Shown here: positions 1,688 to 30,920 of the stretch, piece by piece
Numbering within the stretch: the stretch's first letter is position 1
Layout of the letters: every line of letters begins with the position of its first letter
IMG/VR virus record: IMGVR_UViG_3300025168_000393
Location: 1 to 30,920 of that record
Length of the DNA stretch: 30,920 nucleotides
Source: a virus
Direction: 5' to 3' (one strand)
Position numbers and translations under genes: made by a program
Notes under the pieces: model-generated
The model's input: only the letters and a program-made list of their open reading frames with translations
The model's database searches: none
What the model was told of the DNA's origin: nothing

Positions 1688-3541
1688 ATGAATTATTTAA
1701 TAACAAACAATAAGAGTCAGGTTGTATATGATAATATGCAATCTATTTCAGTTGATACCGCAATTTCACAGTTAAGAAGCTGTGAGGTTGTGGGTGTTGA
1801 CACAGAAACTACCGGTTTTAACTGGAATGATAATGCATTATTGTTGTTACAGATATCTACGAAAGAAAACAATTACATATTTGATTGTACAAGTGTAGAT
1901 ATATCAATACTGAATAAAATGTTCTTAAGTGATAAGGTTACTAAAATCTTTCACAATGTAAAGTTTGATTACAAGTTTTTACGTGCGAATAATCTTAATA
2001 CTGAAAATGTATATGATACTATGCTTGCTGATCAAGTTATACACTGTGGTAAAAAGAGTATAAAATACAGTCTTGATGCATTATTAGATAGATATTTTGA
2101 AATATTTATAGATAAGAGCACAAGATTATCATTTGTTACACACAACCCTGGTAATCCATATACTAAGCAGCAACTTAAATATGCATTTACTGATACTGAG
2201 TTTTTATTACAAATTGTAGAGAAACAACAAGAATTAATTAACGAATATGATCTAAATGAGGTAATTAAGCTTGAAAATCAAGCTGCACTTGCCTTTGCAG
2301 ACATAGAATACAATGGTATTTACTTAAATAAGACTAAATGGGAAGAAAACTATAACAAAATCAAGATAGATTTAGAACAATCTATGGAACAGCTTGATAA
2401 TTTTATAGAACTTGATCCTATGTTCGATCGTTTTAAGCTAAAACAAGTACAAACAGACATGTTTCTACCTATGGAAGAGCTTAGAAAGACTAATATGTTA
2501 TGGAGTTCACCTACACAAGTGTTAAAACTTATGCAGTGTGTTAGTCCAGAACTTGAGAGTGTTAATGGTAAAGTATTATTGATGCATAAAAATATGCACC
2601 CTATTGTGTCTAAATATATAAAATATAAGGAACAAGCTAAATTATGTAATGCATATGGCTTGGATTTCTATAAATATCTGCATAAAGATGATAAAATACA
2701 TACATCATTTCAACAGATATTAAATACAGGTAGAGTTTCGTCAAGAAGCCCTAACATGCAGCAGATCCCTAGTAATAATTCATATAGAAATGCATTTGTA
2801 CCTGAAAATGGTGAAGATGTGTTTGTGTCTTCTGATTTTTCCTCTCAGGAGCTTTGTATTATTGCTTTTGGATCTGGTGATCCTGTATGGTTAAATGCAC
2901 TAGAAGAAGGTAAAGATTTACATTCTATATGTGCTGAACTTATATTTGGAAATACATGGATAGACGCAGAAGGTGATACTAAAGAACGTAAGAGACTACG
3001 TACAGCTGTAAAAGCTATTAATTTTGGTCTTGCTTATGGTATGTCAGAGTTTAAACTATCTGATACTTTGGGAATAACAGTCAAAGAAGCTAAGAAAATG
3101 ATTAAGAAATACTTTACAGTGTTTCCTGCCATTAAAAAGTTTCTAGACAATCTAGGAGCATTTGGTACAGATAATGGATTTATCAGAACCTTCTCTCCTT
3201 ATAGACGCATACGATGGTTTGAGGATTGGTCACAAGAAATGGAAGACTTTGCTGCATTAGGCAGTATAGAAAGAGCTTCTAAAAATACACCAATACAAGG
3301 CACCGGTGCAGACATGACTAAACTAGCTTTAGTTATGGTGAGAAAGTCCATTAAACAACAGGATTTACCTGTTAAATTGATTATGACAGTGCATGATCAG
3401 ATTGATACTATATGTAAAAGTGATTTTGCAGAAGAGTGGAGCATAATGCTTAAAGGTATCATGGAAGAAGCCGCACTTAAAATCATTACAAATGGACTAT
3501 TAAAATCAGATACTAATATTACTAAACAATGGCAAAAATGA
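1688..3541 (+). CDS. family A DNA polymerase with 3'-5' exonuclease
   Basis: Replicative DNA polymerase of the Pol I/T7 type, 617 residues, without a 5' nuclease domain. The proofreading domain is complete: Exo I VDTETTGF (D38, E40), Exo II HNVKFDYKFL, Exo III YAFTD. In the polymerase domain, motif A is SSDFSSQEL (catalytic D383), motif B is RTAVKAINFGLAYG (R438, K442, F446, Y450) and motif C is MTVHDQID (H569, D570). Motif C has Gln571 where Glu is usual, and motif A has Cys in place of the Arg after the conserved EL. Phe446 at the Klenow F762 position predicts discrimination against dideoxynucleotides. The gene overlaps the next one and heads the replication block. Confidence 0.95.
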   Translation: MNYLITNNKSQVVYDNMQSISVDTAISQLRSCEVVGVDTETTGFNWNDNALLLLQISTKENNYIFDCTSVDISILNKMFLSDKVTKIFHNVKFDYKFLRANNLNTENVYDTMLADQVIHCGKKSIKYSLDALLDRYFEIFIDKSTRLSFVTHNPGNPYTKQQLKYAFTDTEFLLQIVEKQQELINEYDLNEVIKLENQAALAFADIEYNGIYLNKTKWEENYNKIKIDLEQSMEQLDNFIELDPMFDRFKLKQVQTDMFLPMEELRKTNMLWSSPTQVLKLMQCVSPELESVNGKVLLMHKNMHPIVSKYIKYKEQAKLCNAYGLDFYKYLHKDDKIHTSFQQILNTGRVSSRSPNMQQIPSNNSYRNAFVPENGEDVFVSSDFSSQELCIIAFGSGDPVWLNALEEGKDLHSICAELIFGNTWIDAEGDTKERKRLRTAVKAINFGLAYGMSEFKLSDTLGITVKEAKKMIKKYFTVFPAIKKFLDNLGAFGTDNGFIRTFSPYRRIRWFEDWSQEMEDFAALGSIERASKNTPIQGTGADMTKLALVMVRKSIKQQDLPVKLIMTVHDQIDTICKSDFAEEWSIMLKGIMEEAALKIITNGLLKSDTNITKQWQK

Positions 3542-3882
3542 GAATAGACTATAAAATTTTAAAAGAACTAAAACGAATCTTTGGTGATTACCAAGTTGGA
3601 TCAGAAAAAAACGGAAGATTGTACTTCAGATTTGGTTATTGGCAACATATTGACAAAGATTTGTTTGCGTCTGTATTTCCTACTTATCTTTCTATAGAGG
3701 AGTTTATTGTTGACGAAGACGACGATACTGGTATAGCTTACATATATTATGTGTGGGATGATCAGATTAATAAAGAACGATGGAGGAAAAAGAAAGAAAG
3801 AGACTACAAATTATTTGGATGGTCTATGTTAGGATTAGTTCTATGTATTTTATATATGGTACTATACAAGTACATATTTTAA
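3529..3882 (+). CDS. hypothetical protein with C-terminal membrane helix
   Basis: 117 residues: a mixed, aromatic-rich soluble part with an acidic DEDDD patch (~residues 63-67), a very basic stretch (RWRKKKERD, ~84-92), then one membrane helix (~residues 97-117, LGLVLCILYMVLYKYIF) at the extreme C-terminus. The basic stretch before the helix predicts a tail-anchored protein with its N-terminus in the cytoplasm. Start 3529 overlaps the polymerase gene by 13 bases; ATG 3538 would give an ATGA stop-start overlap and is equally plausible. I do not recognise the family. It might tether replication proteins to the membrane, but that is only a guess from position. Confidence 0.7.
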   Translation: MAKMRIDYKILKELKRIFGDYQVGSEKNGRLYFRFGYWQHIDKDLFASVFPTYLSIEEFIVDEDDDTGIAYIYYVWDDQINKERWRKKKERDYKLFGWSMLGLVLCILYMVLYKYIF

Positions 3883-3913
3883 TTTGATATGTATATAATT
3901 AATCGTATATTTT
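3883..3913 (+). promoter_or_regulatory. candidate promoter before the SF2 helicase gene
   Basis: TTTG at 3883-3886 is followed after 19 bases by TATATTTT at 3906-3913, close to the Bacteroidota -33 TTTG / -7 TAnnTTTG pattern, 6 bases before the ATG at 3920. The downstream part (TTAATCGTATATT) also matches sequences at 7353-7366 and 13943-13956. The region is very AT-rich, so chance matches are easy. Confidence 0.4.
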
Positions 3914-3919
3914 ATTAAT

Positions 3920-8051: not shown

Positions 8052-8090
8052 AAGGGGTTTAAGGATATACGTATCTTTGCCCCTTTTTTT
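8052..8090 (+). terminator. rho-independent terminator after the SSB-like gene
   Basis: AAGGGG at 8052-8057 pairs with CCCCTT at 8080-8085; inside, AAGGATA (8061-8067) pairs with TATCTTT (8072-8078, one G-U), giving one long hairpin followed by a run of seven T (8084-8090). It lies 28 bases after the SSB-like stop and 17 bases before the primase ATG, so it separates two transcription units or attenuates read-through. Confidence 0.85.
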
Positions 8091-8106
8091 ATATAAAATA
8101 ATAAAT

Positions 8107-9117
8107 ATGTATAATCTAAATCCAGTAGTAACTAAAGAGTTTATTTTAGGAAATTTAGATCAAGTGCAAATACTCGAACACTATTTAGGAATAAAAGTAC
8201 AGAAGAAGAAAGTAAGGTCTCCGTTACGTACGGATAATAATCCTTCATGTTCTTTTTCTGCTAACGGTAATGGTATTATATATTTCAAAGATTGGGCACA
8301 GGGATTTACAGGTGATTGGATAAAAGTCATACAATATAAGTATGGTCTAACTTATCAACAGTCATTAGATAGATGCGCTGAAGACTTTGGATTAATAAAA
8401 ATAGGTCTTAGATCTATTACTCCTATTAACCGTGATTACACAAAGATACAAATTGAACCTACAGAGTCAGTAATACAAATAAAAATTAGATCTTGGGATG
8501 TGAACGATAGAGAATATTGGTCAACCTATGGTATAAACAGAGAGACTCTACAGTTATATGATGTATATCCTTGTGAGATAGTATTCTATAATAGTAAAAT
8601 AGTATATAACAGAACCAAAAACGATTTAGCATATGCTTATAGATTTGGTCCAGGTAAGTATAAAATATACATGCCTCAGCGTAGTTCATTTAGATGGTTA
8701 TCTAATTTTACAAGCTGGCAGGGACTAGAACAGTTGCCTAATACAGGTGATTGTGTGGTAATAACAAAATCTATGAAAGATGTTATGTGCTTAAGACAAT
8801 TTGGTATACATGCATGCTCTCCGGCGAGTGAGGTAGCAGAACCTGAAGAGAAGATTCTAGCGGATCTTACTACAAGGTTTCATGATGTAGTTACATTAAT
8901 GGACTTTGACTATACAGGAATTAAGATGGCTAATAAACTTTATAAGCAGTATAATTTCACACCTCTATTTTTAACTAATGGTAGGTTTGGTACTTATGAT
9001 TATAAAGCAAAAGACATCTCAGATTTCTATGAGTTAAAAGGACATAATGAGACACAAGCACTAATTAATAATTCTATAATAACGTTAAATAATAAAATAT
9101 GGCACAGAAACCCTTAG
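8107..9117 (+). CDS. DnaG-like primase with degenerate zinc domain and TOPRIM
   Basis: 336 residues from ATG 8107; the same frame is open upstream from a TTG at 8077, but that lies inside the terminator hairpin, so ATG is preferred. Residues ~5-95 correspond to the CHC2 zinc-binding domain (SPLRTDNNPSCSF ... GIIYFKDWAQGFTGDWIKVI), but the zinc-ligand Cys/His are replaced. Residues ~213-310 are TOPRIM: VVITKSMKDVM, TLMDFDYTG (D266, D268) and AKDISDFY (D303, D306). The usual first TOPRIM Glu is Lys221. It presumably makes RNA primers for the phage polymerase. It overlaps the RusA-like gene by 19 bases. Confidence 0.82.
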   Translation: MYNLNPVVTKEFILGNLDQVQILEHYLGIKVQKKKVRSPLRTDNNPSCSFSANGNGIIYFKDWAQGFTGDWIKVIQYKYGLTYQQSLDRCAEDFGLIKIGLRSITPINRDYTKIQIEPTESVIQIKIRSWDVNDREYWSTYGINRETLQLYDVYPCEIVFYNSKIVYNRTKNDLAYAYRFGPGKYKIYMPQRSSFRWLSNFTSWQGLEQLPNTGDCVVITKSMKDVMCLRQFGIHACSPASEVAEPEEKILADLTTRFHDVVTLMDFDYTGIKMANKLYKQYNFTPLFLTNGRFGTYDYKAKDISDFYELKGHNETQALINNSIITLNNKIWHRNP

Positions 9118-16087: not shown

Positions 16088-16241
16088 ATTAATATATACA
16101 GAACAACTTCCTAACGAACCAGAGGGACGTGAGGATTATGTAATATTAATAACTGAAAACATTCAATGGAGTGTAGATCAATTTATGAGAAACAGATATA
16201 TAACAGAATATAAAATAATAGCATTAAATGAAAAAGAATAA
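16065..16241 (+). CDS. small hypothetical protein, 58 aa
   Basis: ATG 16065 to TAA 16239-16241. It begins MKKSKEYKLIYTEQLPNEPE, and its middle (EDYVILITENIQWSVDQFM) gives a strand-strand-helix impression. It overlaps the DnaA-like gene by 23 bases and the UDG gene by 14, filling the otherwise empty 140-base gap exactly. This is the best evidence that it is real. No family was recognised. Confidence 0.62.
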   Translation: MKKSKEYKLIYTEQLPNEPEGREDYVILITENIQWSVDQFMRNRYITEYKIIALNEKE

Positions 16242-17319
16242 TTTAGAAATAAAAGACCAACATAAAAACACGTTGGTTATAGAAAAACAATCTCCTTATC
16301 AAGTATTTATAAAACAAGCCGATGAAGATCGTACTCGTATGGTTGGTTATTTAGAACCAGATCAAGACGGAACTTTTACTTATAAAAAACATGAGAAAGA
16401 AGAGGATATATACAGAAAAACAAAAGCATGGAGTATACATGCTAGAATTTTAGATTTTGCACAACGTATAGAATATACAACTAATAGAGCTGTATACACT
16501 ATAAACACTATAGACGCTAAAACCAGATCAGGTAGAATGCTATATAAGAATGCAAGCTATACAAAAAAAGTTTATGTCCCGGTTAAATACTGGAACATAG
16601 AATTTAAAGAGCCTAAAGATCAAAAGCTATGTGATAAATTAGGATACGAATGGTGGTCTGAATTAAAATCTATATTTAATACAGCTAAGATGTTACAACT
16701 TAGTATGTTTTTAAAAGATAGATATAAACAGACAACAGTCTATCCCCCGGTTAACGAGATATTTAATGCTTTTAGACATTGTAATTTGTTAGATACTAAT
16801 GCAGTTATAATAGGACAAGACCCTTATCATGACGGCAGTGCGCATGGTTTAGCCTTTTCAATAAGAGAGGGACAAAGAAAAATACCACCTTCTTTAAGAA
16901 ATATACTTAAGGAAGTACAAGACGATGTTTATACAAATACCTTTGCATTTAAATCCGCTCATAGTCCTACTCTTACAAGATGGACAACACAAGGTGTATT
17001 ATTATTAAACAGAGCTCTTACTGTTGAAGCAGGTAAGCCTAATTCACATAAAAAACAGTGGGATGGTTTTGTAGAAATAGTAGTAAATTTACTAATAGCG
17101 TTCAAAAAGAAAAGAAATGAACCTATAGTATTTATTTTGTGGGGTAAAGACGCACAAACCTGTGTACAGGAAGACAATTCAGATCTTGTACATATAATAA
17201 AAGCACCGCATCCTGCTTCTGAAGCTTATACCGGTGGGAAGTCTGGGTTCTTCGGGTCAAAACCCTTTACAAAGTGTAATACGTTTTTAGAAAAATATAA
17301 CCTATCTATAAATTGGTAA
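16228..17319 (+). CDS. ung: uracil-DNA glycosylase with long N-terminal extension
   Basis: 363 residues. From about residue 135 it is a family 1 uracil-DNA glycosylase: VIIGQDPYHDGSAHGLAFS with catalytic Asp198, IPPSLRNILKE, WTTQGVLLLNRALTVEAGKP, FILWGKDAQ, and the Leu-loop region APHPASEAYTGGKSGFFGSK with His328. It removes uracil from DNA. Family 1 enzymes are about 225 residues; here ~135 extra N-terminal residues form a strand-rich, aromatic and basic domain (YQVFIKQADEDRTRMVGYL, later KAWSIHARILDFAQRIEY) that I do not recognise. It overlaps the 58-residue gene by 14 bases and is followed by a terminator hairpin. Confidence 0.93.
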   Translation: MKKNNLEIKDQHKNTLVIEKQSPYQVFIKQADEDRTRMVGYLEPDQDGTFTYKKHEKEEDIYRKTKAWSIHARILDFAQRIEYTTNRAVYTINTIDAKTRSGRMLYKNASYTKKVYVPVKYWNIEFKEPKDQKLCDKLGYEWWSELKSIFNTAKMLQLSMFLKDRYKQTTVYPPVNEIFNAFRHCNLLDTNAVIIGQDPYHDGSAHGLAFSIREGQRKIPPSLRNILKEVQDDVYTNTFAFKSAHSPTLTRWTTQGVLLLNRALTVEAGKPNSHKKQWDGFVEIVVNLLIAFKKKRNEPIVFILWGKDAQTCVQEDNSDLVHIIKAPHPASEAYTGGKSGFFGSKPFTKCNTFLEKYNLSINW

Positions 17320-17464: not shown

Positions 17465-20400
17465 TTATCGTTCAGTTATCATTAAGAAATTTCTTAATGC
17501 AGTTTCTGGGTCTGTCTGTAATCCGCTGATTCCTAGCCACTGTAAGGCACGTACTTTAAGTTTGTTTTCACCTTTTTCCCACGGACCTGAGTCTCTTTGA
17601 TATTCCTCCGTAGGTGCTCCAATTTGATTTAACAACTTCATAGTTCTTTCTATACTAGTTGTCATAGCTGTCGGAGATCTTAATATTCTAAGAAACTCTC
17701 CAGCTGCTGTTGGTGTAGGAGCAAAAGCCATTATTTCAGCTTTAGTAGTAGTTAATAAATATAATAAATAATATGCAGGTACACTAATTTCTTCATCGTC
17801 ATCGTCTTGCATACCCATTAATATACTAACAAGAGACGATAATATAGCTAATAGTGTAATTTCATGCATAGTTTTCATAACAGCCTCTTTGTCTTGAGGA
17901 GTAAGCATGCTTCTTCTTTTAGTATCTAAAGCTCTTTTTATTAGATCACTTTCCGCACTAGTCTTCCAGGCATTCCACATGTTAGATATAGCTCTTCTAT
18001 AAAATCCACCATCCGGTTCTCCTTTCTCATGATTAACAAAATCAACTCTCCATCTATTCATTACTGTAGGTATGAGGAATTTTCTAAATAATTCTATCAT
18101 TCTACCTGCAGCTGTCTGTGACAATACAGATTTGTCTATAGATTTATAATTACCATTTAATCTTCTGTTCATTTCTGCTATCTCCAATGTAGTAGTTCTA
18201 ATAATTTCTTGAGCTGTTTTCTTTTCTGCAGCTGTACCTTTAAATTCAAACTTACCTGTTTTTTTATCTACTTTAAATGCATCATATAATCCTACCTCTT
18301 CACCATTTACAACTACTTTTCGTTTTTTAAGCAATGCAATAGCCGCTGCTCCTTGGGCTGCAACCTCTCCTATATGATAATTTATTAATAAGTTATCTGG
18401 ATTTAATAATGTTTGTCTTAATAAAGTATTACCTGTAGTTTGTTTACCAGAAGCAAAATCATCAAACTCTCCTTGTATAGCATCAAAGTATAATAACAAT
18501 TGACCTAGATAACTTTTGTTGCCTAATTTTTGATATTTATCATCGAACAATGCTTTCATATTAGTAGGACTAACCATAGCTTTGTGTCCATCCAAAAACT
18601 CTGTTAATGATATTTTTCCTTTGTTTGCTCGTGCTGCTCCGGCTTCTATACCTTGTTGCCAGACAGCTGTTAAAAAGTTTCTTGACCCTTTTAAGAAATC
18701 TAATCCTAAAGTTGTTATAGCTGTATATCCTAAAATATTATCGACTATTTTATCTATCTGTATATTTGTACCAGGTAGCATTGTAACGTTTTTAGTTTTA
18801 CCTAATAACACCATTTCAATATATTTTTCTAATCTTTTAGCTACATAACTCTCTCCTTGTTTTATACTTGCTATTTTTCTACCAAGTTTATTGATACCTA
18901 TAACATCAGGTTTTGTAGGATCTATAATTCTATTTTGATTATAAGTATCTCTTAACATATATGCTAATTTAAGAACCTCATTGTTTTGTTCTGTTCTTAA
19001 CGCTGCATTAGAAAAAGTCATTAAAGATCCTTTTACATCTAAAGAAACTTCATTAGCATCTATATCTTCCATAAAATATACCGGCGCATAATTTCTTGTT
19101 TGATTTTGCATAGCTGCATATCCATATACAAATGCGTCATCTTCATCTACTCTGAATAATCTTTCAGCCTCTTCCTTTATACCTTCAAAAGTTTTCTTAT
19201 CTAATATTCTATCATAGAAACCTTTTCGTAGAGATGGTAATGTCATATCTACGCTTTGTTTTTTATACACTTTTGCTAGTGCATCTCTATAGATCTCTGT
19301 AAACTTAGCATGCGCTTCTCCAATTTTATTTTTAGGTTTATCTGTCTTATCATATAAACTAGACCATTTATTATTTATAAACTTATCATTTGGTTGTGTT
19401 ACCTGATATCCAAAGTATACAGGATTATTATTTTTCATACCAGAACTAGCTGCTTCTACAGATTGCATCATATCAAACTCTTCTTTAGTTATAATACCTA
19501 ATTTATACATTGCAGCTGGATTCATTTGACTTCTAGCCCATCCTCTCAAATTACTTTGTCTTTTCATTACATATCTAATCTCATCTTCTGTTTTGGGTTT
19601 CATGTTATTTTTATACCACCCTGTTTTTCTAAGCTGTAATCTTAACAAGTCTTTTTCATCTGGTCCTACTTTTTTATTTGTATCTAATCCTTGTAGCTGT
19701 GTTTCTAAATCACTTATAATATCTGCTACGCCTTCCTGGTCTTCTTGTAGTTTGTAACCTTCTAGTTGTGCTTGTAATTTTTTGATACGTCTATTTAAAG
19801 CAGTAATATATTCTACTCTCAACCTTTTCATTAATTCACTATTACCTGCTATTTTTAGCTCTGCTTCCTCTAGTGCTTTTTCAAATAATGAAATATCATA
19901 TTTAGTAACAAGGGTCCAAACATCTTTATTACCTGTTCCTCTATGATTTATCAACTCTATAATATCTTCATATAATTCTCTAGGATTATTAGATACTTTA
20001 CCTCCTTGTTCTTTTTTAGCTTCCTTTAATAAGTTATCTGTGCTTTCTAATTCATTAGATATATTAATAGCTTCTCGTCTAGCTTCTATTGCTAAAGATG
20101 ATGTATAATTAACAAGTGCTGCTAACCCTGGATCTGATGTAGTACCGGGTGCCATAAGCATATAACCTAACCAATCCATGTCATGTGAACTATATAATAA
20201 GAAGTTAGCAAAGTCTGCTTCTGATTGTGGTGCTTGTTCTGCTAGTTTAGAAAACTTAGCTACTCGTCCTTTTAATCTACGAATTTTATCTGCTTTTGCT
20301 TTATCATCTAAGTCTGATGCTAGTATTATATCTATCTGTTTATTTGTATCCTCTAACCTTATATCTACAAACTTTTTAGTTTCTATTCCTGATTTTTTAA

Positions 20401-23400
20401 CCATAGGATATAGTTTATTTGCTAGCACAGGTATAAACTCTTTACGTAAACTAGTCTTCATATCTTCTAAAAGAGTAACAGATTCTTGTAGCTTTTTAAG
20501 CATCTTCTCACTCTCTTTATATTTTGTATTTTTAAGTTTAGATTTAAATGCATCAGGCAACTCATTAATAAAAGACATGTCTTCTAGTAATATTCTATAT
20601 TTAGTAAGACCATCTATCATTTCTTCTACAGATCTATTCTTAGTTAAAAATGCATTAAGCAATGTATATTGCGCTTTAACGTCATCATAGAAATCATCTA
20701 TACTATTAAATACATCTTGTGCTAATTCTATATCAGTTATAATTTTAGCAAGTCTTGCAGATCTATTTTTAACAAAAGCAGTGTTCTTAACATTACCTTT
20801 TTGTATTTCTTGTAATTGTTTATTTAAAAGTATTAATACATTATTGGTAACGTTTCTATCCGGGTCAACACTTCTCATCTTAACAAGATCTTCAGTAGTT
20901 TCTGGCATATATGGTTTTAATTTAAGAACCATACCTGCAGATCGTAATCCTTTTATATAATCTTTCTCTAATTTAGTACCATTTTTCTTCCAGTCTTCTA
21001 GGTTTTTGTATCCTAATTCTTTAGCTAAATCTTCTTGTTGCAATTTACGTAAGTCTGAAAATTGTCCTAAAGCAGTTTTACCTTGTATAGATGCCATTCC
21101 TCTGTCTTTACTGCCTTCAAACATTCTTACAATAGATTCTAATATAGGCATTGCTTCTCCATCAAATACCATTTGAGAAAAATCCTGGTTAGTTAATAGT
21201 TTAGATACATTAGAAGCTGTAGTTTTAACTACTATATCACTAAACATACTAGAACTACCTGCAGGTAGATTAAACATCTGGTCCTGTGAGAAACTTGCGT
21301 ACTGATAGTCTTTACTTAGCAGTCTATCTACCGGGGTTAACAATCTAGATAACTCAGCTAACTCTGAGCCTTCTTGTATCTCTATACCAAATGCATCGGC
21401 TAATAGTTTTACAAATCTACTCCACATGCTTTGTAGTATACCTATTTCATTAGGAGATCTTAGATTATTTAAGTCATTGACTAGTGCTTCATCTTTATAT
21501 ACTAAATGTGTTATTAGTTCTTCAGCTGCTTTTTCTTCATCTTTATAAAACTTATTATATCTATTAAATATAGCTTGTATACCTTTTGCATTCTTTTCAC
21601 CCGCATGGTTTTTAACAAGTTGTTTATACCACTTTAATACATCTTTTCTTAGTTTAGTTTTTTCTGCTTTAGGTAAGGTATCTAAGCCCGCATGTAACGC
21701 TTCCTCTAAAAATAAAGAAGTGCTAAGATTATTTAATGTGATTTTACCCTGCATGTAGTTACTTCCTTTAGCTTGCGGATCATATATTACTTTAACACCT
21801 GCCTTTTCTAAATTATTCATCAAAGGAGTAAATTTCTTTACATTAAGCTCTTTTGCTATTTGTGTAGGAGTATACTCTCCAGCTGCAAAAGTCTCTGTAG
21901 CCTCTTCTGTTTGCTCTAATTCAACAGTTCCTTCTATAAATACAGGCTTTTCTTTAGGTATAACACCTGTTTCTTGTGCCTGGTCTAATGCTTTAGAAAA
22001 CTTCTCGAATGTTTTTGCAGGTAAGTATTTTACAAAAGAATTATTTACAAAGTCTAGCTTACTAGTACCAAATAAGTAACGTAACAAGCCTTCTGCTAGT
22101 TCTTTATTATCTTCAAATAAGTCCTCAAAGTTACCAATAAGTAATCCTTCTATCTCCGGACTCATTTTAGTCTGACTATCTGCTATTAATTGACCATCTA
22201 CAACTCTTAATAATGAATGCAGTGCAATGTTATTTACATATTTTGGATTCTTTTTAAGCTCTTGTATTTTTTGTATAATTCTAGCTGCATCTTCTTTTGT
22301 AGTATTACCGTATACACTTACAAAAACTTTTTGTACCTCTATATTATCTAAAAATCCTTTATCATATATATTATTTAAGTTATCTAATACATTTTTGCTA
22401 TTTTCATATACAGGATGAACTTGTCTTAACGCTTTATTATCATTAAGACTTTTCATAAGGAAGCCTCTTCTTTTATTGTTAGTAGCAAACTGCTGATCTA
22501 ATCCACTAACTGTAGATAATACCTGAGTTAATTCTCTTACATTATCTGCAGCTGGTCCAGTTAATATTTTTCCTACAACTTCTAAGGCTCCTTTTTGTAT
22601 TTGTAAATATTTTATTTCTGCAGGAGATAGCTCTTGATTATTATTAAGTTTATTTAATACATCAGCAAATACTAAATCAGATTTTAGATATTTATCTAAC
22701 TCTTTACTATTTAACTCTGTTGTTTTTATACCTTTTAATTGTTGTTGTAACATTTCAAAATGAAAGTTGCCTTTGTAATTTTTTGGTGGTGTTACAAGTT
22801 CTTGTTGATCTGTATAATATTTTAAGATAGGCTGGTTGACTACCATAAGAGTTCTCATCTGACCTATACCTAATGCTATAAGATCCGTAGCAGCTACAGT
22901 CATATCTGCACTCAAGTTAACTTGTGGTGCTAATCCTAACTTAACATTATCTACAAATAATGTAATAATAGAAGACATAGAATCAAATTTACTTCTAGTT
23001 CCTTCTTCTAATTCTAGCTTATCGTTTATATCATCTTCTTTTACTATAGTATAAGTATTATATTCTTTGCCGTCTATAGTAATAGGATTTACAGGTATTT
23101 GCATTTGTTCTGCAAACTGTGTAATTATAGAGTAAGCGCTGTTAGCATTGGCTCCTATACCTACGTTTCCAGCACCTATTTTATTTTGTACATGGTAATC
23201 TAGCATACCTGTAATAGTAAATATAGATTTTTTAGTTTCTTTACCTCCATACTTTTCTACAAAGTCTTTTGCTTTACCTTCAGTAGCAGGTTGGAACATT
23301 ACCTCTTGTACTTCTGCAGTATTAAATATTGCAAACATGTTATCTAGCATATTGTTTTGTAATGCTTGAGGATGTGAGTATGCAGCTTGCCCTTCATTAT

Positions 23401-26400
23401 TTAATATACCAAGTCTTTGCATTGCTTCTGTAGGTCCCAGACCAAATACTTGTTGTGCAAGTTTAACATATTGATTTTCACTCCAATATTGTTTGTATTG
23501 TGCTAACGTTGGTTCTGCAGGTAATACAACTCTTTGACCCTCTTCATTTAGTACAGATGCATATCTATGTAAGTATAATTTATCTAAGTCATAATCAGAT
23601 CCTGCAAGAGCCGGTAACTCTAAAGGGGTTACTACGGAATCTCCATTAGCATCAGGTAAAAATCCTACAACTTTTAAAGGTATCATAGAGTGATGCGCTT
23701 GTACAGGAATACGTACACCAAATGCGGTTAAGAGTTTAGAGGGCACATCTTTTATGTTTCCAAACTCATTAAGATTAAACATCTTTTTAGATGCTAATAT
23801 CTCAGCGTATTCAATAGTTCCATTTACATTTCTATGTATTCTAAGTGGTTGACCTGTTTGCGGATTTACAAAGTGTGTACCAGATATAAGAGTAGCTTGA
23901 CCTCCTACAGCTTTACTACTAAGCGCATCTCTATTAAACAAGTTTAGTATAGAAGTCTTTACTAAAGTTTTAACGTGTGGTATATTGTAATTATAGTTTT
24001 CAAATAAGTCAAGAACTGTGTCATTTCGTCTACCTCTATTGTTTTCTAGTATAATAGCTTTTGCTAAGTCTCTGTTATTCGGGTCAGATACAATTGTATT
24101 AACAAGCTCATTAAATATAGCTTTATTATCTGCATTAGATTGATTAATAACATCTACTATTTGTCTGTTATCTCCTTGTACTACAGATCCTATTAGATCG
24201 TGCAGCTGTTTAGCTACTGCAGATTCAGTTTCTATTCCATATCTAGACTTAGTTTTATTTACTACCTGGTCTCTTTCATATTGCATGCTACCTTCAAAGA
24301 TTAAATCTTCGTTAATATCTTGTGCTGTATTAAAGAAGTCAGACGATACACCAGGATCTGATTTTCTTTTACTAGCACTCTGTGCAATAAGGTACATTAC
24401 TTTATTATTGTTAAGTGCATTATATATGTTTAACAATTGCGGATTACCTGCTCTATCTTGTTCTTCAGCAAGAGCTTGTGTTAAAATAAAATCTGATTTC
24501 TTAAAATATCTATTAGCATCTTCATACACAGTTTTTGTGCTGTTTAGATCTAGTCTATTCATTTCAGAAGGAGTTAGTCTTATAGATGGATCATCCAAAC
24601 TTTCCTTTAATTTTTTTAGTATTTGTTTTTGTTTATCTGATGTATAATTATCTGACTCTAATTCTCTTACAGCATACATTTTATCTGTAATAATTACCTG
24701 GGCGTCATTTGTTACACTCTCTACACCAAAATCTGTATCAATGATATTATCATCTATCATCAAATATTTATAATTTATGTTACCTTTTTTAAGACCAGCT
24801 GCATTGAAACCGGCTAAACGTTTATTAAAGTCTACATCATTTTTAAAATTAGAATCTCCTAGCGCTAATTGTGTATAGTTACCACCTATTATTAAGTAGT
24901 TTAAAGCTATATTACCTACCTTAGAATTATAATCTCCTACACTAGGACCGTCTAACACTAACTTATCTATATCGTCTCTTAGATTTAATTGTGTTATTCT
25001 ATTATTTAGATCTGCAATTGTAGTTTGTAATGCAGGTTTTATAATATTATCTTTTATAAATGACTCTATACCATCTAATGTTTCTCTGCCTTTTAAAAAC
25101 TCGGGTACAGTTTGTTGTTCACCATTAATACCTGTAATCTCCATATTTTCTAACATAGATAGTATACCAAAGTATTGACCACCATCTAATTTACCTTCAT
25201 CTGTTAGGTTACGTTCAAACTCTCTAACAAATAAACTATTATACATATCATCTATAGCTAGTTGTGTAACTCCTCCATCATAATATTGTTTCTTAGGTAG
25301 TCTTAAGGCGTATAAAGATTTTTTACTTTCTATTACATGTGGTGTGTAATAAGCATGTCCTTGTATCTCTTCGTTTAAGAAAAGTCCAAACATTAACATT
25401 ACTCTTTGTTTATCAGATATAGTTTTATTAGTAGCAGTATCTTTTCCTTCTACAAAGTCTCCTGCCATTTTTATTTCTATACCAGATACATTATCTTTTA
25501 ATAAGTTATTAGGTAGTAATGTAAACTTATCATTTAATTTACCTTCTTTAGCAAGTCTCGCAACTTCCATGTAGAGGTTTCTTGGTACATATCTATATCT
25601 AGATTTACCCTCTGCATCTCTATAGTTAGCTTCATATGTAGATGGATCAAAGATAGCAGCTATCTGTGCCATTTTATATAGAGGATGATTTTGTTTTAAA
25701 CTGTTTGGTTTCTTGTTATAACTATTTAGTTTACCTAAGAACCCTTTAAAATTACCAAGTTCATTATACATTAGTTCAGGATATGCGTCTCTAAGTACTT
25801 GATCTCCTAGCATATACGCAGCTGCGGCTGGTGTTATTTCCCATCCTAATTTATCAAATGCTTTAACTAGCGCTTCTGTATTACTATATGCAGTGCCTTC
25901 CTTCTCTAATATAGTTTTAATTAATTTTATAGCTTCATTTTTAGTTTTTGTATCTATACTAGCACTTCTACTGTACCATTTATTTAGTATTTGATTAGGC
26001 GTGTCCTGTGATATAGGGTCTACAATGTTACCTTTATTATCTTCTACTAACATTTTTAAGTATCCTAACTCAAATCTGTTAAATGCATTCACAAACCCTG
26101 GTACAAAACTAGGATTGTTTTTTAATGCTAATCTGACTTGTGCCATTTGCGGATCATACGTTGCAACAGCATCAAGTCTAGCCATTATATTACCCTCATT
26201 TGTTTGATTAGATAACATCATCATAAGCTTACCTGCTATAGTATGACCATTTAATGTCTTAAGTATTTGTGTAGTACCATACTTTTCAGATTGCCATGTA
26301 GTTCTACCAAATATATCTGTAGCAGGTGTAGTTAAGTTAGATATAAATTGTTTTATTCTAGAGGGAAGAGATTCTATACCTCCTAACTCTGTAAAATCCA

Positions 26401-29400
26401 TGTCCCAATTTACACTTAATATATCAGCTTCTTCTTCTACATATTTATATTGAGCTTTTACTTTATCAAATAAAGAAGACTTATCAAACTCAGGAGATTC
26501 TAATATAACTTTCTGTCTTAAAGCAAACTTAGCTTGTTCTCTTACTTGATTAAACTCCTCTTTAGTGTATGTTTTATTAGGGTCTATAAAAGATTTAATA
26601 GTTATACCTTGTATATATTTATCTAGTATTTGATTTAATGCTTCGCTAACATCTTCTGTAAATACATCTCCATCTTTTAATTGTGCAAACAACTGCGATT
26701 CTAAATCTAATCTTACACCATTGTTAAGATTTTTAACATCTAGGTTAGCCATTTCATTACCTAGTTCTTTACGCAATTGTTCTTCTAGCTCTTCAGCTGT
26801 ATAAACTTCTTTTTCTACTAAAGAGATTTCCTCTTCTATCACTTCCTCTGTAAATGTAGGTTCTTGTAAAGTATATATATCATTACTAACCTCAATAGAC
26901 ATAGTAGGATTAACAAAGCTTGCTCCTGGTAGTAAACTACTTTCAAAGTCTGCAGAATTTATTTCTGATCCGTCATCGGGTATACTCTCTTTAAAACTAG
27001 CGCTTGTTATCTGTGATCCTCCTTGTATATTAGCAAGAGCTCCATTAATAGTATTTATAATAGTTTTAAGAGAAGCATTGTTAGCAAGTCTTACATTATT
27101 TAAACCTTTTATTTTTTGGTATTGGTCTTTAATTTTACGTTGTCCATATATACTAAGCTTATAAGAGTTAGTTTTTTTATCAAAGTCTGCTCCTACTTTA
27201 ATATCTATACCATCAATTGCTATAAACATATTTAGTTTTTTATTTATAGCTTTTAGTTCTTCGTTATAATTTAATTCTATTCCGGTTTTTATTTGTTGGT
27301 TTAATCTAGATATATCTTTTTTTAATGTTTGTAATCTTTTATTAACTCCTTTTTCATCTACTCTTTTAGGAAATATTCTAACCCAATTAACAACATTACC
27401 CCTTTTAACTAATGCAAAGTATCTACCTTCAAACTCATTACCAGGTAACATAGACATATGTTCTTTATTAGGATTAGTTCCTAATACAACTTTACCTAAA
27501 TGTTTGTCATATATAATATAGTCTCCATCAAATGTATGAGGACTAGTAATATTATCAATACTTATTCTTGCCTCTTGGTTGTTATTAGCTAACCCTCCTT
27601 GAAATTTAAAAGAAAATAAACTATCATCTAATACTTGTGGATTTTCTAAAGTAGAATTAGGATATAAAGTTTCTAGTTTAGTTAATGCATCATTTAATAT
27701 TTTATAATTATTCTGAAACTCTGCCCATGTTTGATCTGTAAAAGGCTGTCCGGTTTTCTTAAAGTTTTTATAGAAAAACTCTTTTGTCATTTTATCTCCA
27801 GGTATTAAATTACTTTGTTTATCATAGAACCTATTACTAGATCTTACAACTCCTAATAAATTACCACTTCTTAGATCACGTATTTGTAAAAAGGATCCAT
27901 TCATGTTTATTTGCATGTCTCCTTGCTCTATAGGATTATTACCAAGTTCTCTAGGTACAGAAACAAATTCTATTTGTATATTTTTAATCAGGTCTGGGTC
28001 GGTAAGAATTCTATCAGCTAGTTCTTCCTTTGTCATAGTACCCATAGATCCTGCTTCTGACACTACATGTAACCAGTAAGTTGTTAGGAAATTATCCATG
28101 TGCTTATTGTTGTCTATAGTAGGCGCTAAATACTCCCCTTTAGCTTTACTTTCTGGTACAACAATGTTTTTACCTTCTTTATCTTTTCCTTTTAGTATAT
28201 ATTGTTTTTTACCATCAGGTCCTATTTCTATTCTTTCTATTTCACCGGTTTGATTGTTTCCGTATACTATATGAGTAGGAGGTACAGACTCTACAGTTCC
28301 TCCTATAACACTTTCTACAGCTCTAGCTTGATTGTCTGCTTGCTGTTGTGCTTTAACTTGTGCCTCTTTTTGTTTTCTTTTTCTTTTTTCTGAAAAAGTT
28401 TCTTTAGGTGTATTTTCATCCTCTTTTGTCTTTTCACTTTTTGGAGCTTCTTGTTCTTCTTGCTGTTCTTCATCTGTTTTCATAGACTCAGATATAGCTT
28501 GATCGTATTCAGCCCATGTATCAGGAGAAGTTAAGATTTCATTAATCTTATCATCATGTTGTTTTATATTTTCATCAAGAGTTTGTATAAGAGCATCATA
28601 TGCTTCTTGTTCTTTACCGGCTTGCGCAGCTCCTGTTACTTTTAAGCTTTCTACTATGTCTTTAAATCTTGGGTCTTTACCTAAAGATTTTAATAATTGA
28701 GTAAACTTTCTTTTTTTACCTGGTTGTAAAGAATTAAACAACTCTTCTATTTTTTGTTTTTGATACTCTGATCTAGTTTTTTGTAATGCTAATTGTTTTA
28801 ATCCTTGAACTATAGTATTAGGTATATTTTCTAAATTATATTGTTTTGCTAGATTTGGATCAGCAAAGTATTCAAGCATAGTATCATTAATGCTTTTAAG
28901 ATTAGTAATACCTAATTCTTCAGCTTTAATTTTATCTAACCTTTTTTGTTTTTCAACATCAGTTAGCTTATCATTAGATTCTATATCAGCTCTTCTTTTA
29001 TTTAATCTATTTAATCTGTCTTTATAATTTACACCATGAAGTAAACTTTGACCTACTACATATTGTCCTTTAGGCGATAGATAACTATAAGCTATTTCAT
29101 TTTGTTTCCATAGTTCATTTAATCCCTCTACTTTTTTCTTTAATTTATTTCTTTGATACAGACTTAATGTTTTTTCTCCATATAGGTGATCTATCATCTG
29201 CGTTATATCTGTATATCTACCTTCAGCAATAAGAGTCATAAGATCCGGTTCATAAGCACTGTCCATTATAGTACGTGCTCCTGCTCCTAGTATAAATCCT
29301 AAAGCTCCTTCTTGTATAAGTTGACCAGTATCAAAGGCTCCTACTCTAAATTTACCTTTACCAAACTGTGCATCTTCTGGTGCAAAATAAGCATTATATG

Positions 29401-30920
29401 TTTGTTCTGTTGCTTGTACAATACTTCCTTGTACTATTTCTTCTGACCCTTCTTCAATACCAGAACTTAATCCTCTACCTATTCTGCCTACTAATTTAGA
29501 TCCACTTTGTGCTCCTAATCTTTCTAATCCTTCAAATACCTTTTTTAATATAGGACCAGTTGCTTTATCTAGAAAGCCTTTACTATTAACTTTCATACCT
29601 GTTTGTTTAGCAACTCCGAATATAGCATTATATATTACAGATTGACCTCTAACTCCCATAGCTCTATTAGCTAATGCATTTGATCCAAGACCGTATTCTA
29701 CAAGAGAATTTACAAATCCTACTGCTAATCCCATGGTAGCTGCAGCATTATCATCTAATCCATCTAGTTTAGCTTTTTTATATATTTCACCTGCATTTAT
29801 AGGAGTACCTCCTGCAATGTGACCCATAAAACTAGCTAATTTTCTAGGAAATTTCTTACCTAATTTTTTAGCTAAGAACAATCCTCCTTTTGTTGTAATT
29901 TTAGCAGCAGCTCCACCCATTCCCCAAAACGATAGTAAAGATGCAATACCACTACCTAATCCTCCTGCTAACGCTGTACCATTTTCAAACATATTATCTG
30001 TTTGTTCCATTGCAGACTTAGCATAATCATGGAATTCAGAGCTTGCTCTTGCACTTGCAGCTACTCTATCAGTCCATCCATTTGGATTAGAATCCCAGTC
30101 TCCAGTACCAAAAGCTTTATTATAACTAGCTTCTCCTAAATCTGTTACCAACTCCGCAAAGTTTACCATATCAGGACCTAAGCCTCCTAAAGTATGACTA
30201 AAATTATCTACAAAAGCTCCTGTAGCTGTTTTAGCCATAGGCGCTGGACCGTAAGGATTTAATAGTGCTCCTCTTACTCTTCTAAAACTCTCTTCGTCTA
30301 AACTTGTTTCTTGTAATACGTATTGTTCTGTGTCTTCGTCCCATACTGGATAATATCCTTTAGATTCATATCCTTGAAACATTTTATCTACTAGTTGAAA
30401 AGGAACCATGCTTCTAGCCATTTCAGCATCTTGTTGTACTGCCTTTTCATATGTAGTATCTTTATCTAAACCAAACATGTCAATAAGAGATAGTCTTCTT
30501 TTTTCTTCATCTGGTCCAGTAGCTTTAAATATAGGAGCATAATCGTAAGTACGTTTATATAATTTACCTTGTGAATCATCTCCCCACATTCTATCAAACC
30601 ATGTAGCATTATCAAACTCAGCTCCTTCTCCATCTCGCATATTAACAAACTCTCCTGCTTCGTTTCTAACAATACCTTTTCTTCCTAAATCAAACGCCAT
30701 CTCTTGACCTATACTCATAGATTTAGTTTCTCCTACTGTGCTCATACTACTAGCACTAGGAAGCTGACCAAAGCTATAATTCTCAGGAGCAAAATCTGTA
30801 GGTACATTATATTCATCAGGTTCTAGACCAGAAAAATCTCCAGTGCCTTGTAAGTAATCTATGTTTTGTTTGATATTTGGATTTAACTCTGAAACCAGTT
30901 TATTAAATCTACTTAAACTG
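17465..30920 (-). CDS. giant crAss-like virion RNA polymerase polyprotein (5' end outside window)
   Basis: One minus-strand frame of 13,456 bases runs from the right edge to a TAA at 17465, giving more than 4,484 residues. The ATG at 30745 is not the start: the frame stays open through the last 175 bases (…DFSGLEPDEYNVPTDFAPEN…). Residues below count from that ATG. The core GSDYDLDKLYL (D2384, D2386, D2388), preceded by RIPVQAHHSMIPLKVVGFLP, matches the metal-binding double-psi beta-barrel loop of crAss-like virion RNA polymerases such as phi14:2 gp66. The polymerase part probably covers roughly residues 1400-2900. The rest is Gly/Ala-rich hydrophobic (~250-310), low-complexity (~750-810), degenerate zincin-like (~2970-3130), long coiled-coil (~3250-3650) and a C-terminal hydrophobic helix (~4292-4311). 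It is probably packaged and ejected to transcribe early genes. Confidence 0.85.
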   Translation of the reverse strand, partial: SLSRFNKLVSELNPNIKQNIDYLQGTGDFSGLEPDEYNVPTDFAPENYSFGQLPSASSMSTVGETKSMSIGQEMAFDLGRKGIVRNEAGEFVNMRDGEGAEFDNATWFDRMWGDDSQGKLYKRTYDYAPIFKATGPDEEKRRLSLIDMFGLDKDTTYEKAVQQDAEMARSMVPFQLVDKMFQGYESKGYYPVWDEDTEQYVLQETSLDEESFRRVRGALLNPYGPAPMAKTATGAFVDNFSHTLGGLGPDMVNFAELVTDLGEASYNKAFGTGDWDSNPNGWTDRVAASARASSEFHDYAKSAMEQTDNMFENGTALAGGLGSGIASLLSFWGMGGAAAKITTKGGLFLAKKLGKKFPRKLASFMGHIAGGTPINAGEIYKKAKLDGLDDNAAATMGLAVGFVNSLVEYGLGSNALANRAMGVRGQSVIYNAIFGVAKQTGMKVNSKGFLDKATGPILKKVFEGLERLGAQSGSKLVGRIGRGLSSGIEEGSEEIVQGSIVQATEQTYNAYFAPEDAQFGKGKFRVGAFDTGQLIQEGALGFILGAGARTIMDSAYEPDLMTLIAEGRYTDITQMIDHLYGEKTLSLYQRNKLKKKVEGLNELWKQNEIAYSYLSPKGQYVVGQSLLHGVNYKDRLNRLNKRRADIESNDKLTDVEKQKRLDKIKAEELGITNLKSINDTMLEYFADPNLAKQYNLENIPNTIVQGLKQLALQKTRSEYQKQKIEELFNSLQPGKKRKFTQLLKSLGKDPRFKDIVESLKVTGAAQAGKEQEAYDALIQTLDENIKQHDDKINEILTSPDTWAEYDQAISESMKTDEEQQEEQEAPKSEKTKEDENTPKETFSEKRKRKQKEAQVKAQQQADNQARAVESVIGGTVESVPPTHIVYGNNQTGEIERIEIGPDGKKQYILKGKDKEGKNIVVPESKAKGEYLAPTIDNNKHMDNFLTTYWLHVVSEAGSMGTMTKEELADRILTDPDLIKNIQIEFVSVPRELGNNPIEQGDMQINMNGSFLQIRDLRSGNLLGVVRSSNRFYDKQSNLIPGDKMTKEFFYKNFKKTGQPFTDQTWAEFQNNYKILNDALTKLETLYPNSTLENPQVLDDSLFSFKFQGGLANNNQEARISIDNITSPHTFDGDYIIYDKHLGKVVLGTNPNKEHMSMLPGNEFEGRYFALVKRGNVVNWVRIFPKRVDEKGVNKRLQTLKKDISRLNQQIKTGIELNYNEELKAINKKLNMFIAIDGIDIKVGADFDKKTNSYKLSIYGQRKIKDQYQKIKGLNNVRLANNASLKTIINTINGALANIQGGSQITSASFKESIPDDGSEINSADFESSLLPGASFVNPTMSIEVSNDIYTLQEPTFTEEVIEEEISLVEKEVYTAEELEEQLRKELGNEMANLDVKNLNNGVRLDLESQLFAQLKDGDVFTEDVSEALNQILDKYIQGITIKSFIDPNKTYTKEEFNQVREQAKFALRQKVILESPEFDKSSLFDKVKAQYKYVEEEADILSVNWDMDFTELGGIESLPSRIKQFISNLTTPATDIFGRTTWQSEKYGTTQILKTLNGHTIAGKLMMMLSNQTNEGNIMARLDAVATYDPQMAQVRLALKNNPSFVPGFVNAFNRFELGYLKMLVEDNKGNIVDPISQDTPNQILNKWYSRSASIDTKTKNEAIKLIKTILEKEGTAYSNTEALVKAFDKLGWEITPAAAAYMLGDQVLRDAYPELMYNELGNFKGFLGKLNSYNKKPNSLKQNHPLYKMAQIAAIFDPSTYEANYRDAEGKSRYRYVPRNLYMEVARLAKEGKLNDKFTLLPNNLLKDNVSGIEIKMAGDFVEGKDTATNKTISDKQRVMLMFGLFLNEEIQGHAYYTPHVIESKKSLYALRLPKKQYYDGGVTQLAIDDMYNSLFVREFERNLTDEGKLDGGQYFGILSMLENMEITGINGEQQTVPEFLKGRETLDGIESFIKDNIIKPALQTTIADLNNRITQLNLRDDIDKLVLDGPSVGDYNSKVGNIALNYLIIGGNYTQLALGDSNFKNDVDFNKRLAGFNAAGLKKGNINYKYLMIDDNIIDTDFGVESVTNDAQVIITDKMYAVRELESDNYTSDKQKQILKKLKESLDDPSIRLTPSEMNRLDLNSTKTVYEDANRYFKKSDFILTQALAEEQDRAGNPQLLNIYNALNNNKVMYLIAQSASKRKSDPGVSSDFFNTAQDINEDLIFEGSMQYERDQVVNKTKSRYGIETESAVAKQLHDLIGSVVQGDNRQIVDVINQSNADNKAIFNELVNTIVSDPNNRDLAKAIILENNRGRRNDTVLDLFENYNYNIPHVKTLVKTSILNLFNRDALSSKAVGGQATLISGTHFVNPQTGQPLRIHRNVNGTIEYAEILASKKMFNLNEFGNIKDVPSKLLTAFGVRIPVQAHHSMIPLKVVGFLPDANGDSVVTPLELPALAGSDYDLDKLYLHRYASVLNEEGQRVVLPAEPTLAQYKQYWSENQYVKLAQQVFGLGPTEAMQRLGILNNEGQAAYSHPQALQNNMLDNMFAIFNTAEVQEVMFQPATEGKAKDFVEKYGGKETKKSIFTITGMLDYHVQNKIGAGNVGIGANANSAYSIITQFAEQMQIPVNPITIDGKEYNTYTIVKEDDINDKLELEEGTRSKFDSMSSIITLFVDNVKLGLAPQVNLSADMTVAATDLIALGIGQMRTLMVVNQPILKYYTDQQELVTPPKNYKGNFHFEMLQQQLKGIKTTELNSKELDKYLKSDLVFADVLNKLNNNQELSPAEIKYLQIQKGALEVVGKILTGPAADNVRELTQVLSTVSGLDQQFATNNKRRGFLMKSLNDNKALRQVHPVYENSKNVLDNLNNIYDKGFLDNIEVQKVFVSVYGNTTKEDAARIIQKIQELKKNPKYVNNIALHSLLRVVDGQLIADSQTKMSPEIEGLLIGNFEDLFEDNKELAEGLLRYLFGTSKLDFVNNSFVKYLPAKTFEKFSKALDQAQETGVIPKEKPVFIEGTVELEQTEEATETFAAGEYTPTQIAKELNVKKFTPLMNNLEKAGVKVIYDPQAKGSNYMQGKITLNNLSTSLFLEEALHAGLDTLPKAEKTKLRKDVLKWYKQLVKNHAGEKNAKGIQAIFNRYNKFYKDEEKAAEELITHLVYKDEALVNDLNNLRSPNEIGILQSMWSRFVKLLADAFGIEIQEGSELAELSRLLTPVDRLLSKDYQYASFSQDQMFNLPAGSSSMFSDIVVKTTASNVSKLLTNQDFSQMVFDGEAMPILESIVRMFEGSKDRGMASIQGKTALGQFSDLRKLQQEDLAKELGYKNLEDWKKNGTKLEKDYIKGLRSAGMVLKLKPYMPETTEDLVKMRSVDPDRNVTNNVLILLNKQLQEIQKGNVKNTAFVKNRSARLAKIITDIELAQDVFNSIDDFYDDVKAQYTLLNAFLTKNRSVEEMIDGLTKYRILLEDMSFINELPDAFKSKLKNTKYKESEKMLKKLQESVTLLEDMKTSLRKEFIPVLANKLYPMVKKSGIETKKFVDIRLEDTNKQIDIILASDLDDKAKADKIRRLKGRVAKFSKLAEQAPQSEADFANFLLYSSHDMDWLGYMLMAPGTTSDPGLAALVNYTSSLAIEARREAINISNELESTDNLLKEAKKEQGGKVSNNPRELYEDIIELINHRGTGNKDVWTLVTKYDISLFEKALEEAELKIAGNSELMKRLRVEYITALNRRIKKLQAQLEGYKLQEDQEGVADIISDLETQLQGLDTNKKVGPDEKDLLRLQLRKTGWYKNNMKPKTEDEIRYVMKRQSNLRGWARSQMNPAAMYKLGIITKEEFDMMQSVEAASSGMKNNNPVYFGYQVTQPNDKFINNKWSSLYDKTDKPKNKIGEAHAKFTEIYRDALAKVYKKQSVDMTLPSLRKGFYDRILDKKTFEGIKEEAERLFRVDEDDAFVYGYAAMQNQTRNYAPVYFMEDIDANEVSLDVKGSLMTFSNAALRTEQNNEVLKLAYMLRDTYNQNRIIDPTKPDVIGINKLGRKIASIKQGESYVAKRLEKYIEMVLLGKTKNVTMLPGTNIQIDKIVDNILGYTAITTLGLDFLKGSRNFLTAVWQQGIEAGAARANKGKISLTEFLDGHKAMVSPTNMKALFDDKYQKLGNKSYLGQLLLYFDAIQGEFDDFASGKQTTGNTLLRQTLLNPDNLLINYHIGEVAAQGAAAIALLKKRKVVVNGEEVGLYDAFKVDKKTGKFEFKGTAAEKKTAQEIIRTTTLEIAEMNRRLNGNYKSIDKSVLSQTAAGRMIELFRKFLIPTVMNRWRVDFVNHEKGEPDGGFYRRAISNMWNAWKTSAESDLIKRALDTKRRSMLTPQDKEAVMKTMHEITLLAILSSLVSILMGMQDDDDEEISVPAYYLLYLLTTTKAEIMAFAPTPTAAGEFLRILRSPTAMTTSIERTMKLLNQIGAPTEEYQRDSGPWEKGENKLKVRALQWLGISGLQTDPETALRNFLMITER
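17808..17870 (-). other. C-terminal hydrophobic helix of the giant protein
   Basis: EITLLAILSSLVSILMGM followed by DDDDEE and then AYYLLYLLTTTKAEIMAF. One or two potential membrane helices separated by an acidic cluster, ~115 residues from the C-terminus. They could insert into the host membrane during ejection, or form buried helices. Confidence 0.5.
21330..21860 (-). other. degenerate zincin-like domain in the giant protein
   Basis: KAGVKVIYDPQAKGSNYMQG, then SLFLEEALHAGLD (EEALH at 21692-21706) and, ~60 residues on, EKAAEELITHLV. This is the layout of metallopeptidase-like domains found in large polyvalent phage proteins, where HExxH is followed by an EE pair. Here the first His is Glu3014, so zinc binding and peptidase activity are doubtful. 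Confidence 0.5.
23560..23720 (-). other. RNA polymerase catalytic double-psi beta-barrel segment
   Basis: This encodes RIPVQAHHSMIPLKVVGFLP, a spacer with DANGDSVVTPLELPALA, and GSDYDLDKLYLHRYA. The three aspartates (codons within 23582-23596) correspond to the DxDxD that holds the catalytic magnesium in multisubunit-type and crAss-like RNA polymerases; the following Lys and aromatic are also conserved in the crAss-like group as I recall it. Confidence 0.82.
28322..28485 (-). other. low-complexity charged linker in the giant protein
   Basis: Residues ~753-808: an acidic Glu/Gln run (EEQQEEQEAPKSEKTKEDE), then basic SEKRKRKQKEAQVK and an Ala/Gln-rich run. It probably forms a flexible linker between the N-terminal part and the next globular part, and would be an obvious place for proteolytic separation. 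Confidence 0.65.
29846..29985 (-). other. Gly/Ala-rich hydrophobic segment near the N-terminus of the giant protein
   Basis: ALAGGLGSGIASLLSFWGMG followed by AAAKITTKGGLFLAKKLGKK: hydrophobic small-residue stretches alternating with Lys, typical of phage ejection proteins that cross or line membranes. Similar stretches recur ~30 and ~170 residues further on (MGLAVGFVNSLVEYGLG; ALGFILGAGARTIMD). Confidence 0.5.

Follow-up and report, generated by a model that had tools for sequence, protein, structure and literature searches.

Introduction

Giant RNA polymerases of up to ~6,000 residues have been called a hallmark of the crAss-like phages (PMC10136315), and Yutin et al. found the transcription proteins to be large and multidomain in every group except Epsilon (PMC7886860). 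In the prototypes the material is divided among separate genes. Virions of crAss001 contain gp47, gp49 and gp50 by mass spectrometry, and this cargo is thought to unfold partly in the tail, which is too narrow for folded proteins (PMC10172136); gp50 and gp49 are two genes, with gp47 on the other strand. In phi14:2, the polymerase (gp077, published as gp66; 2,180 aa; structure 6VR4) and gp076 (1,421 aa) are likewise separate, gp076–gp078 are annotated as structural proteins detected by mass spectrometry, and gp66 drives early transcription, as retold in a review (PMC10136315).

Single giant chains are also on record. The Delmidovirus (Intestiviridae) proteins of cr110_1 (QOR59078; 4,417 aa) and cr11_1 (QOR58811; 4,388 aa) join a crAss-like RNA polymerase core to a gp49-like C-terminal segment; like that of MT835547, they have about 4,400 residues and are collinear with the chain described here. 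Flavobacterium phage Fpv20, an isolated phage, encodes a giant single chain (gp33; 4,419 aa) with a DYDIDK motif. Farther afield, the virion RNA polymerase (vRNAP) of coliphage N4 (gp50; 3,500 aa; Schitoviridae) is injected as one chain that combines an N-terminal membrane domain, a T7-like single-subunit polymerase, a zincin-like domain and a large, helical C-terminal domain, and Thermus phage P23-45 gp96 (5,002 aa) holds a two-barrel vRNAP within a giant virion protein (PMC10770324).

Here we compare with these systems a giant gene in a linear IMG/VR virus record of 30,920 bases (the whole stretch is hereafter "the window"). We consider it highly likely that the product of this frame is the early RNA polymerase that a phage of a deep crAss-like lineage packages and injects, fused with a gp49-type cargo protein in a chain of about 4,570 residues. 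The gene, its modules, predicted fold and conservation are established for the window by computational analysis; packaging and early transcription are known from relatives. As giant chains are already known in this virus group, the gene is a well-supported further example; a possible novelty lies in the connection between its N-terminal module and N4.

Results and Discussion

The window belongs to a deep crAss-like lineage

The plus strand of the window is a replication block by PHROG matches—a family A DNA polymerase, helicases, a Sak4-like protein, a primase, a RusA-like resolvase and an exonuclease, together with RIIA-like and RIIB-like proteins. Three of its genes serve as landmarks:

1688..3541, plus strand: family A DNA polymerase (PHROG 17, E 8e-100)
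8077..9117, plus strand: DnaG-type primase of the crAss-like clade (PHROG 12622, E 8e-44; tblastn)
16228..17319, plus strand: uracil-DNA glycosylase-like gene (GQDPYH motif; PHROG 12143, which gives no function), convergent with the giant frame and named from its GQDPYH motif

In tblastn the primase matched 117 records, nearly all crAss-like by name. Further evidence comes from a 67 kb contig (G001) that shares synteny with the window throughout the replication block, carries a complete homolog of the giant gene (L023) and also encodes TerL, portal and major capsid protein (MCP) genes. Its capsid (MCP 34%) and TerL match crAss-like phages, with TerL closest to Flavobacterium phages of the genus Fipvunavirus. 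Crassvirales membership, judged on crAss-like MCP, TerL and primase, is thus indicated by the primase in the window and by MCP and TerL in the syntenic contig, and by these sequence comparisons the phage is a member of a deep crAss-like lineage. The clade is rare: besides the window, we found L013–L016/L022, L023 and L116. A scan of genome contigs returned no integrated relatives.

Two local observations may be added. The RIIA-like and RIIB-like genes adjoin one another (10412–13889, plus strand), here in a crAss-like phage. Upstream of the giant gene, the syntenic contig carries three cargo-like genes of 835, 542 and 657 codons (L106:3476-9575), of which the first matches crAss001 gp45 weakly, over 54 columns, and the other two do not; no separate gp47-like gene was seen in that upstream region.

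The giant frame is a genuine gene with a start very probably beyond the window

The minus strand holds one frame that is stop-free from the right edge of the window down to position 17465 and still open at that edge, in agreement with a sequence-only reading of this DNA that had described an unbroken frame (though no strand) and an internal ATG:

17465..30919, minus strand: giant virion RNA polymerase gene, 4,484 codons, 5' end cut by the contig edge (homologs L022 and L023)
30743..30745, minus strand: internal ATG, codon 59, with homologous sequence continuing upstream

Given the base composition, the chance of a stop-free run this long is ~10^-180. Two homologs from different contigs, L022 (4,458 codons, 5' open) and L023 (4,609 codons, complete), both reached through the catalytic motif in a profile-based IMG/VR scan, align over the whole window chain at 44–46% identity with no break or frameshift, strongly and weakly conserved stretches alternating. 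For the C-terminal module the same kind of scan gave close IMG/VR relatives at 98, 89 and 57% identity. Against two close relatives the C-terminal part is under purifying selection, with dN/dS of 0.11 and 0.14 and with 41/33/130 and 11/5/32 changes at the first/second/third codon positions.

These data bear on the possibility that the phage itself keeps the genes apart and that they were joined by an assembly error or missed frameshifts, as raised already with the sequence-only reading, or by lost stop codons. That the two genes are separate and adjacent in most relatives would fit such a joining. Because the unbroken chain recurs end to end in two independent contigs, in one of them complete, and the C-terminal part is moreover under purifying selection, this explanation is already refuted, short of an artefact shared by the contigs, and we give it almost no weight: the gene is real.

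Its start very probably lies outside the window. Sequence upstream of the ATG at 30745 still aligns, weakly, to the complete homolog, in which window residue 100 corresponds to residue 188; hence this ATG is very probably internal, about 84 N-terminal residues would be absent from the window, and the full chain would have roughly 4,570 residues.

The yield of searches differed along the chain. A direct search of the whole chain against Pfam, PHROGs and PDB sequences gave no significant match, and exact-peptide searches for relatives were productive with the C-terminal alignment (A3) and a short core alignment (A4), with zero matches for the raw core or alignment A1.

A crAss-like two-barrel polymerase occupies the middle of the chain

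Profile comparison places the polymerase in the central third of the frame:

21980..26410, minus strand: crAss-like two-barrel virion RNA polymerase module, residues 1504–2980 (HHalign; fold match to 6VR4)
23582..23596, minus strand: catalytic DxDxD motif DYDLD, residues 2442–2446 (aspartates invariant in 17 relatives)

Residues 1504–2980 align to crAss001 gp50 (HHalign prob 100, E 2e-39) and residues 1991–2974 to phi14:2 gp66 (prob 100, E 1e-39), and a tblastn search with the core matched 74 phage records, mostly crAss-like. An AlphaFold2 model of residues 1900–2990 (mean pLDDT 73) matches 6VR4 with VIA Z 21.4 over 922 residues (rmsd 5.9; Foldseek E 1.3e-25), ahead of the eukaryotic RNA-interference two-barrel polymerases QDE-1 and RDR2 (Z 12–13.5). 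Since the model alignment (A8) contains phi14:2 and AlphaFold2 may know 6VR4, the fold match is partly tied to the sequence match and backs that result rather than standing by itself; a match of profile A8 to 6VR4 in the PDB was discounted as circular for the same inclusion. Two marks of the phi14:2 gp66 family—two-barrel fold and DxDxD motif—are present, and we identify the module, from sequence and model, as a crAss-like two-barrel RNA polymerase; that the chain carries the virion RNA polymerase had been proposed in the sequence-only reading. By homology, virions would carry it and it would transcribe early genes.

An inactive polymerase within what is mainly an ejection scaffold would be compatible with DYDLD where DFDxD is common, and with the long non-polymerase parts of the chain. 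Yet D2442, D2444 and D2446 are invariant across 17 divergent relatives, as are K2129, K2140, R2403, N2522 and D2657, among others, which makes this reading very improbable.

Other systems share parts of this layout. The phi14:2 polymerase has the same fold and, with gp076, the same module order, and its 2,180 aa are, as claimed earlier, about half the window chain. In the Delmidovirus giants the order also agrees, although the stretch ahead of the catalytic motif is shorter by ~900 residues and the one separating core from C-terminal segment is longer by ~830. Fpv20 gp33 matches environmental crAss-like giants at HHalign prob 100 and the window directly at 77% over 75 columns; unlike in the window chain, a gp49-like part was not detected. 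In P23-45 gp96 the two-barrel polymerase, though embedded in a giant virion protein as here, lies at the N terminus and is fused to the tail tape measure protein.

Some further polymerase loci were observed on the way. Fpv20 (NC_031912) lies outside the named Crassvirales families, and its gp33 (L113:34468-47727), annotated "virion structural protein," is by profile a giant crAss-like vRNAP (prob 100 to the L070 family). The late half of MT835492.1 (49–121 kb; L007 and L008), which includes a 3,401-residue RNA polymerase frame, is open only if TAG is recoded, with a coding fraction of ~0.75 under code 15 and at most 0.06 under code 11. In bajarodcaudo virus 1 (L011:15624-23807), the polymerase gene is split beside the catalytic motif by an insert with an annotated endonuclease, each half matches the core separately, and the insert is probably a self-splicing intron.

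The polymerase is followed by a gp49-like protein with a degenerate zincin motif

Behind the polymerase, three features and one candidate membrane segment can be placed:

17546..20188, minus strand: gp49-like cargo module, residues 3578–4458 (HHalign to crAss001 gp49; BLAST)
21323..21883, minus strand: zincin-like subdomain, residues 3013–3199 (model topology; weak match to N4 vRNAP C1)
21692..21706, minus strand: degenerate zincin motif EEALH, residues 3072–3076 (same placement in 23 of 77 relatives)
17813..17869, minus strand: sole segment above the transmembrane hydropathy threshold, residues 4351–4369

Residues 3578–4458 align to crAss001 gp49 566–1325 (HHalign prob 99.9; BLAST E 7e-27), and by sequence we assign residues ~3000–4484 to the next cargo protein, crAss001 gp49, fused to the polymerase. 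The claim that material kept separate in the prototypes stands here in one chain is borne out: the modules are homologous to crAss001 gp50 and gp49, and to phi14:2 gp077 and gp076, in the same order. Of the crAss-like proteins then named for comparison, gp66, gp50 and gp49 all match at the probabilities given above, whereas crAss001 gp47 has no direct profile match to the N-terminal part (prob <2).

A zincin-like element had also been predicted, and it can be located in the gp49-like part, in degenerate form. Its model shows beta strands followed by the EExxH helix (pLDDT 73–88 at the start, lower afterwards), the strand-strand-helix order being that expected of a zincin; against the HExxH-bearing C1 domain of N4 vRNAP the match is weak (VIA Z 6.3; Foldseek not significant). 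In 23 of 77 relatives, where composition predicts 0.8, an [HE]ExxH motif lies ~530–1,030 residues ahead of the gp49 C-terminal domain, so the element belongs to the gp49 family. The HExxH catalytic motif was not found in the window clade: its three members carry EEALH or EEAVH, with Glu for the first His, and among relatives outside the clade some have HExxH and others EExxH. In cr110_1, unlike the window, the zincin-annotated RNA polymerase-associated protein is a separate gene. Long-helix matches of one model (mc4c769d418cb; e.g., 6gy8, Z 8.5) were dismissed as coiled-coil noise, and the lack of a Foldseek match in that case carries no weight.

The joining of polymerase and gp49 is a minority state—9 loci fused, 66 separate and 15 undecidable, with near-duplicate records counted too. 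A quick core tree, in which several long branches are uncertain, requires four or more changes of the fused label; the joining probably arose more than once, and polymerase and gp49-like partner therefore probably work as one complex. The case shows that a polymerase and its partner protein can be joined in cis.

Were the chain a true polyprotein, its N-terminal, polymerase and gp49-like parts would be released by cleavage, either ahead of packaging or once injected, with the zincin-like domain of the chain as a possible protease. Zincin-like domains have been proposed to process large phage proteins (PMC5512222), and polymerase and gp49 are separate genes in 66 of the 75 loci where both are seen. 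Against this, the motif lacks its first histidine throughout the clade, full-length N4 vRNAP is present in cryo-EM samples with no evidence of degradation (PMC12633501), and repeated fusion of the two genes suggests that their separation is not needed. Cleavage is possible, but no evidence of it was found and the sole protease candidate in the sequence is a degenerate motif; we judge a polyprotein unlikely. The Flavobacterium phages with the 4,419-residue homolog offer a cultured system in which full-length and cleaved chains could be told apart.

The length of the chain is less exceptional than its description as among the longest phage proteins implied. Among the IMG/VR loci (the best 80 of at least 500 matches, not a random sample), the frame around the motif was identifiable in 76, with at least 4,000 codons in 31 and at least 4,484 in 12; the 54 complete frames of this sample reach 5,683 residues at most, and their median is 3,932. 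Chains of 3,400–5,700 residues are thus common in the group, besides the ~4,400 of Delmidovirus and the up to ~6,000 of the review, and that description is not supported.

The N-terminal part resembles the membrane domain of N4 vRNAP

Two regions precede the polymerase:

29249..30079, minus strand: N-terminal Gly/Ala-rich helical module with EEGxEExxQG, residues 281–557 (HHalign to N4 vRNAP NTD; proposed membrane/ejection module)
26411..29248, minus strand: N-terminal region with no assigned family, residues 558–1503 (no significant Pfam or PHROG match)

Residues 1–1503 gave no relatives outside the close clade at E<0.1, and residues 558–1503 no significant Pfam or PHROG family. Residues 281–557, conserved in L022 and L023, match the N4 vRNAP N-terminal domain (NTD; residues 197–444) at HHalign prob 85 over 214 columns. 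As controls, the reversed N4 profile gives 0.1 and 24 locally shuffled profiles at most 0.5. On trimmed segments the match is at prob 80, and none of 22 further profiles, among them the remaining N4 domains and the crAss cargo proteins, exceeds 1.6. Another family of crAss-like giants (L036) matches the same N4 segment at 90–93%. The shared block consists of an EG/EE-x-x-Q element with a glycine-rich helix behind it. Homology nonetheless falls short of proof, because the match is short (about 80–270 columns), its composition is biased and the window and L036 profiles match each other weakly (3.8%).

The N4 NTD is reported to insert in nanodiscs, with membrane helices predicted at 224–278 (PMC12633501), and there is moderate evidence, from sequence similarity, that residues 281–557 act likewise in membrane insertion. 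For the membrane-like part of the earlier description, this N-terminal similarity is the stronger argument; by hydropathy a single segment (4351–4369) passes the threshold.

The likeness to N4 suggests a shared injection scaffold. Tentatively, and with somewhat less than even confidence, we propose that crAss-like giant vRNAPs and N4-type vRNAPs share it by descent, as a membrane-inserting N-terminal module plus a zincin-like domain behind the polymerase. If so, unrelated polymerases—two-barrel in the window, T7-like in N4—would each have entered this common injected chain, and that history would account for giant single-chain polymerases in both groups. The N4 C2 domain has no HHalign match to the gp49-like module. 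If the likeness is homology, N4 membrane insertion and C-terminal autoinhibition give direct hypotheses for crAss-like phages.

An origin of the N-terminal part from crAss001 gp47, phi14:2 gp078 or the zincin-annotated protein of cr110_1 was rejected, each lacking a direct profile match (prob <2); a weaker link through the EG-EE-Q motif and environmental giants (prob 3–27) is not claimed.

A proposed path for the injected chain

For the preferred reading—an injected early polymerase fused with its cargo partner—we propose the following course. The chain would be made late and packed in the capsid and, on infection, would pass the tail partly unfolded, ahead of or with the DNA. Its N-terminal module may then insert in or contact the cell envelope, and the polymerase module would refold and transcribe early genes. 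The helical gp49-like part would stay attached, perhaps as a regulatory or scaffolding domain, and the chain would presumably work uncleaved; the equally placed C-terminal domain of N4 vRNAP lowers polymerase activity (PMC12633501). Fusion would guarantee one gp49-like domain per polymerase. More broadly, giant injected polymerases pose the question of how chains of at least 4,000 residues are packed, threaded through the tail and refolded.

A separate observation concerns the gene before the phi14:2 polymerase, gp078 (L009:10908-16301), ~500 residues of which are homologous (E 3e-32) to the N terminus of an environmental giant (L070:2-12532), so this gene, too, has become fused to the polymerase in some lineages.
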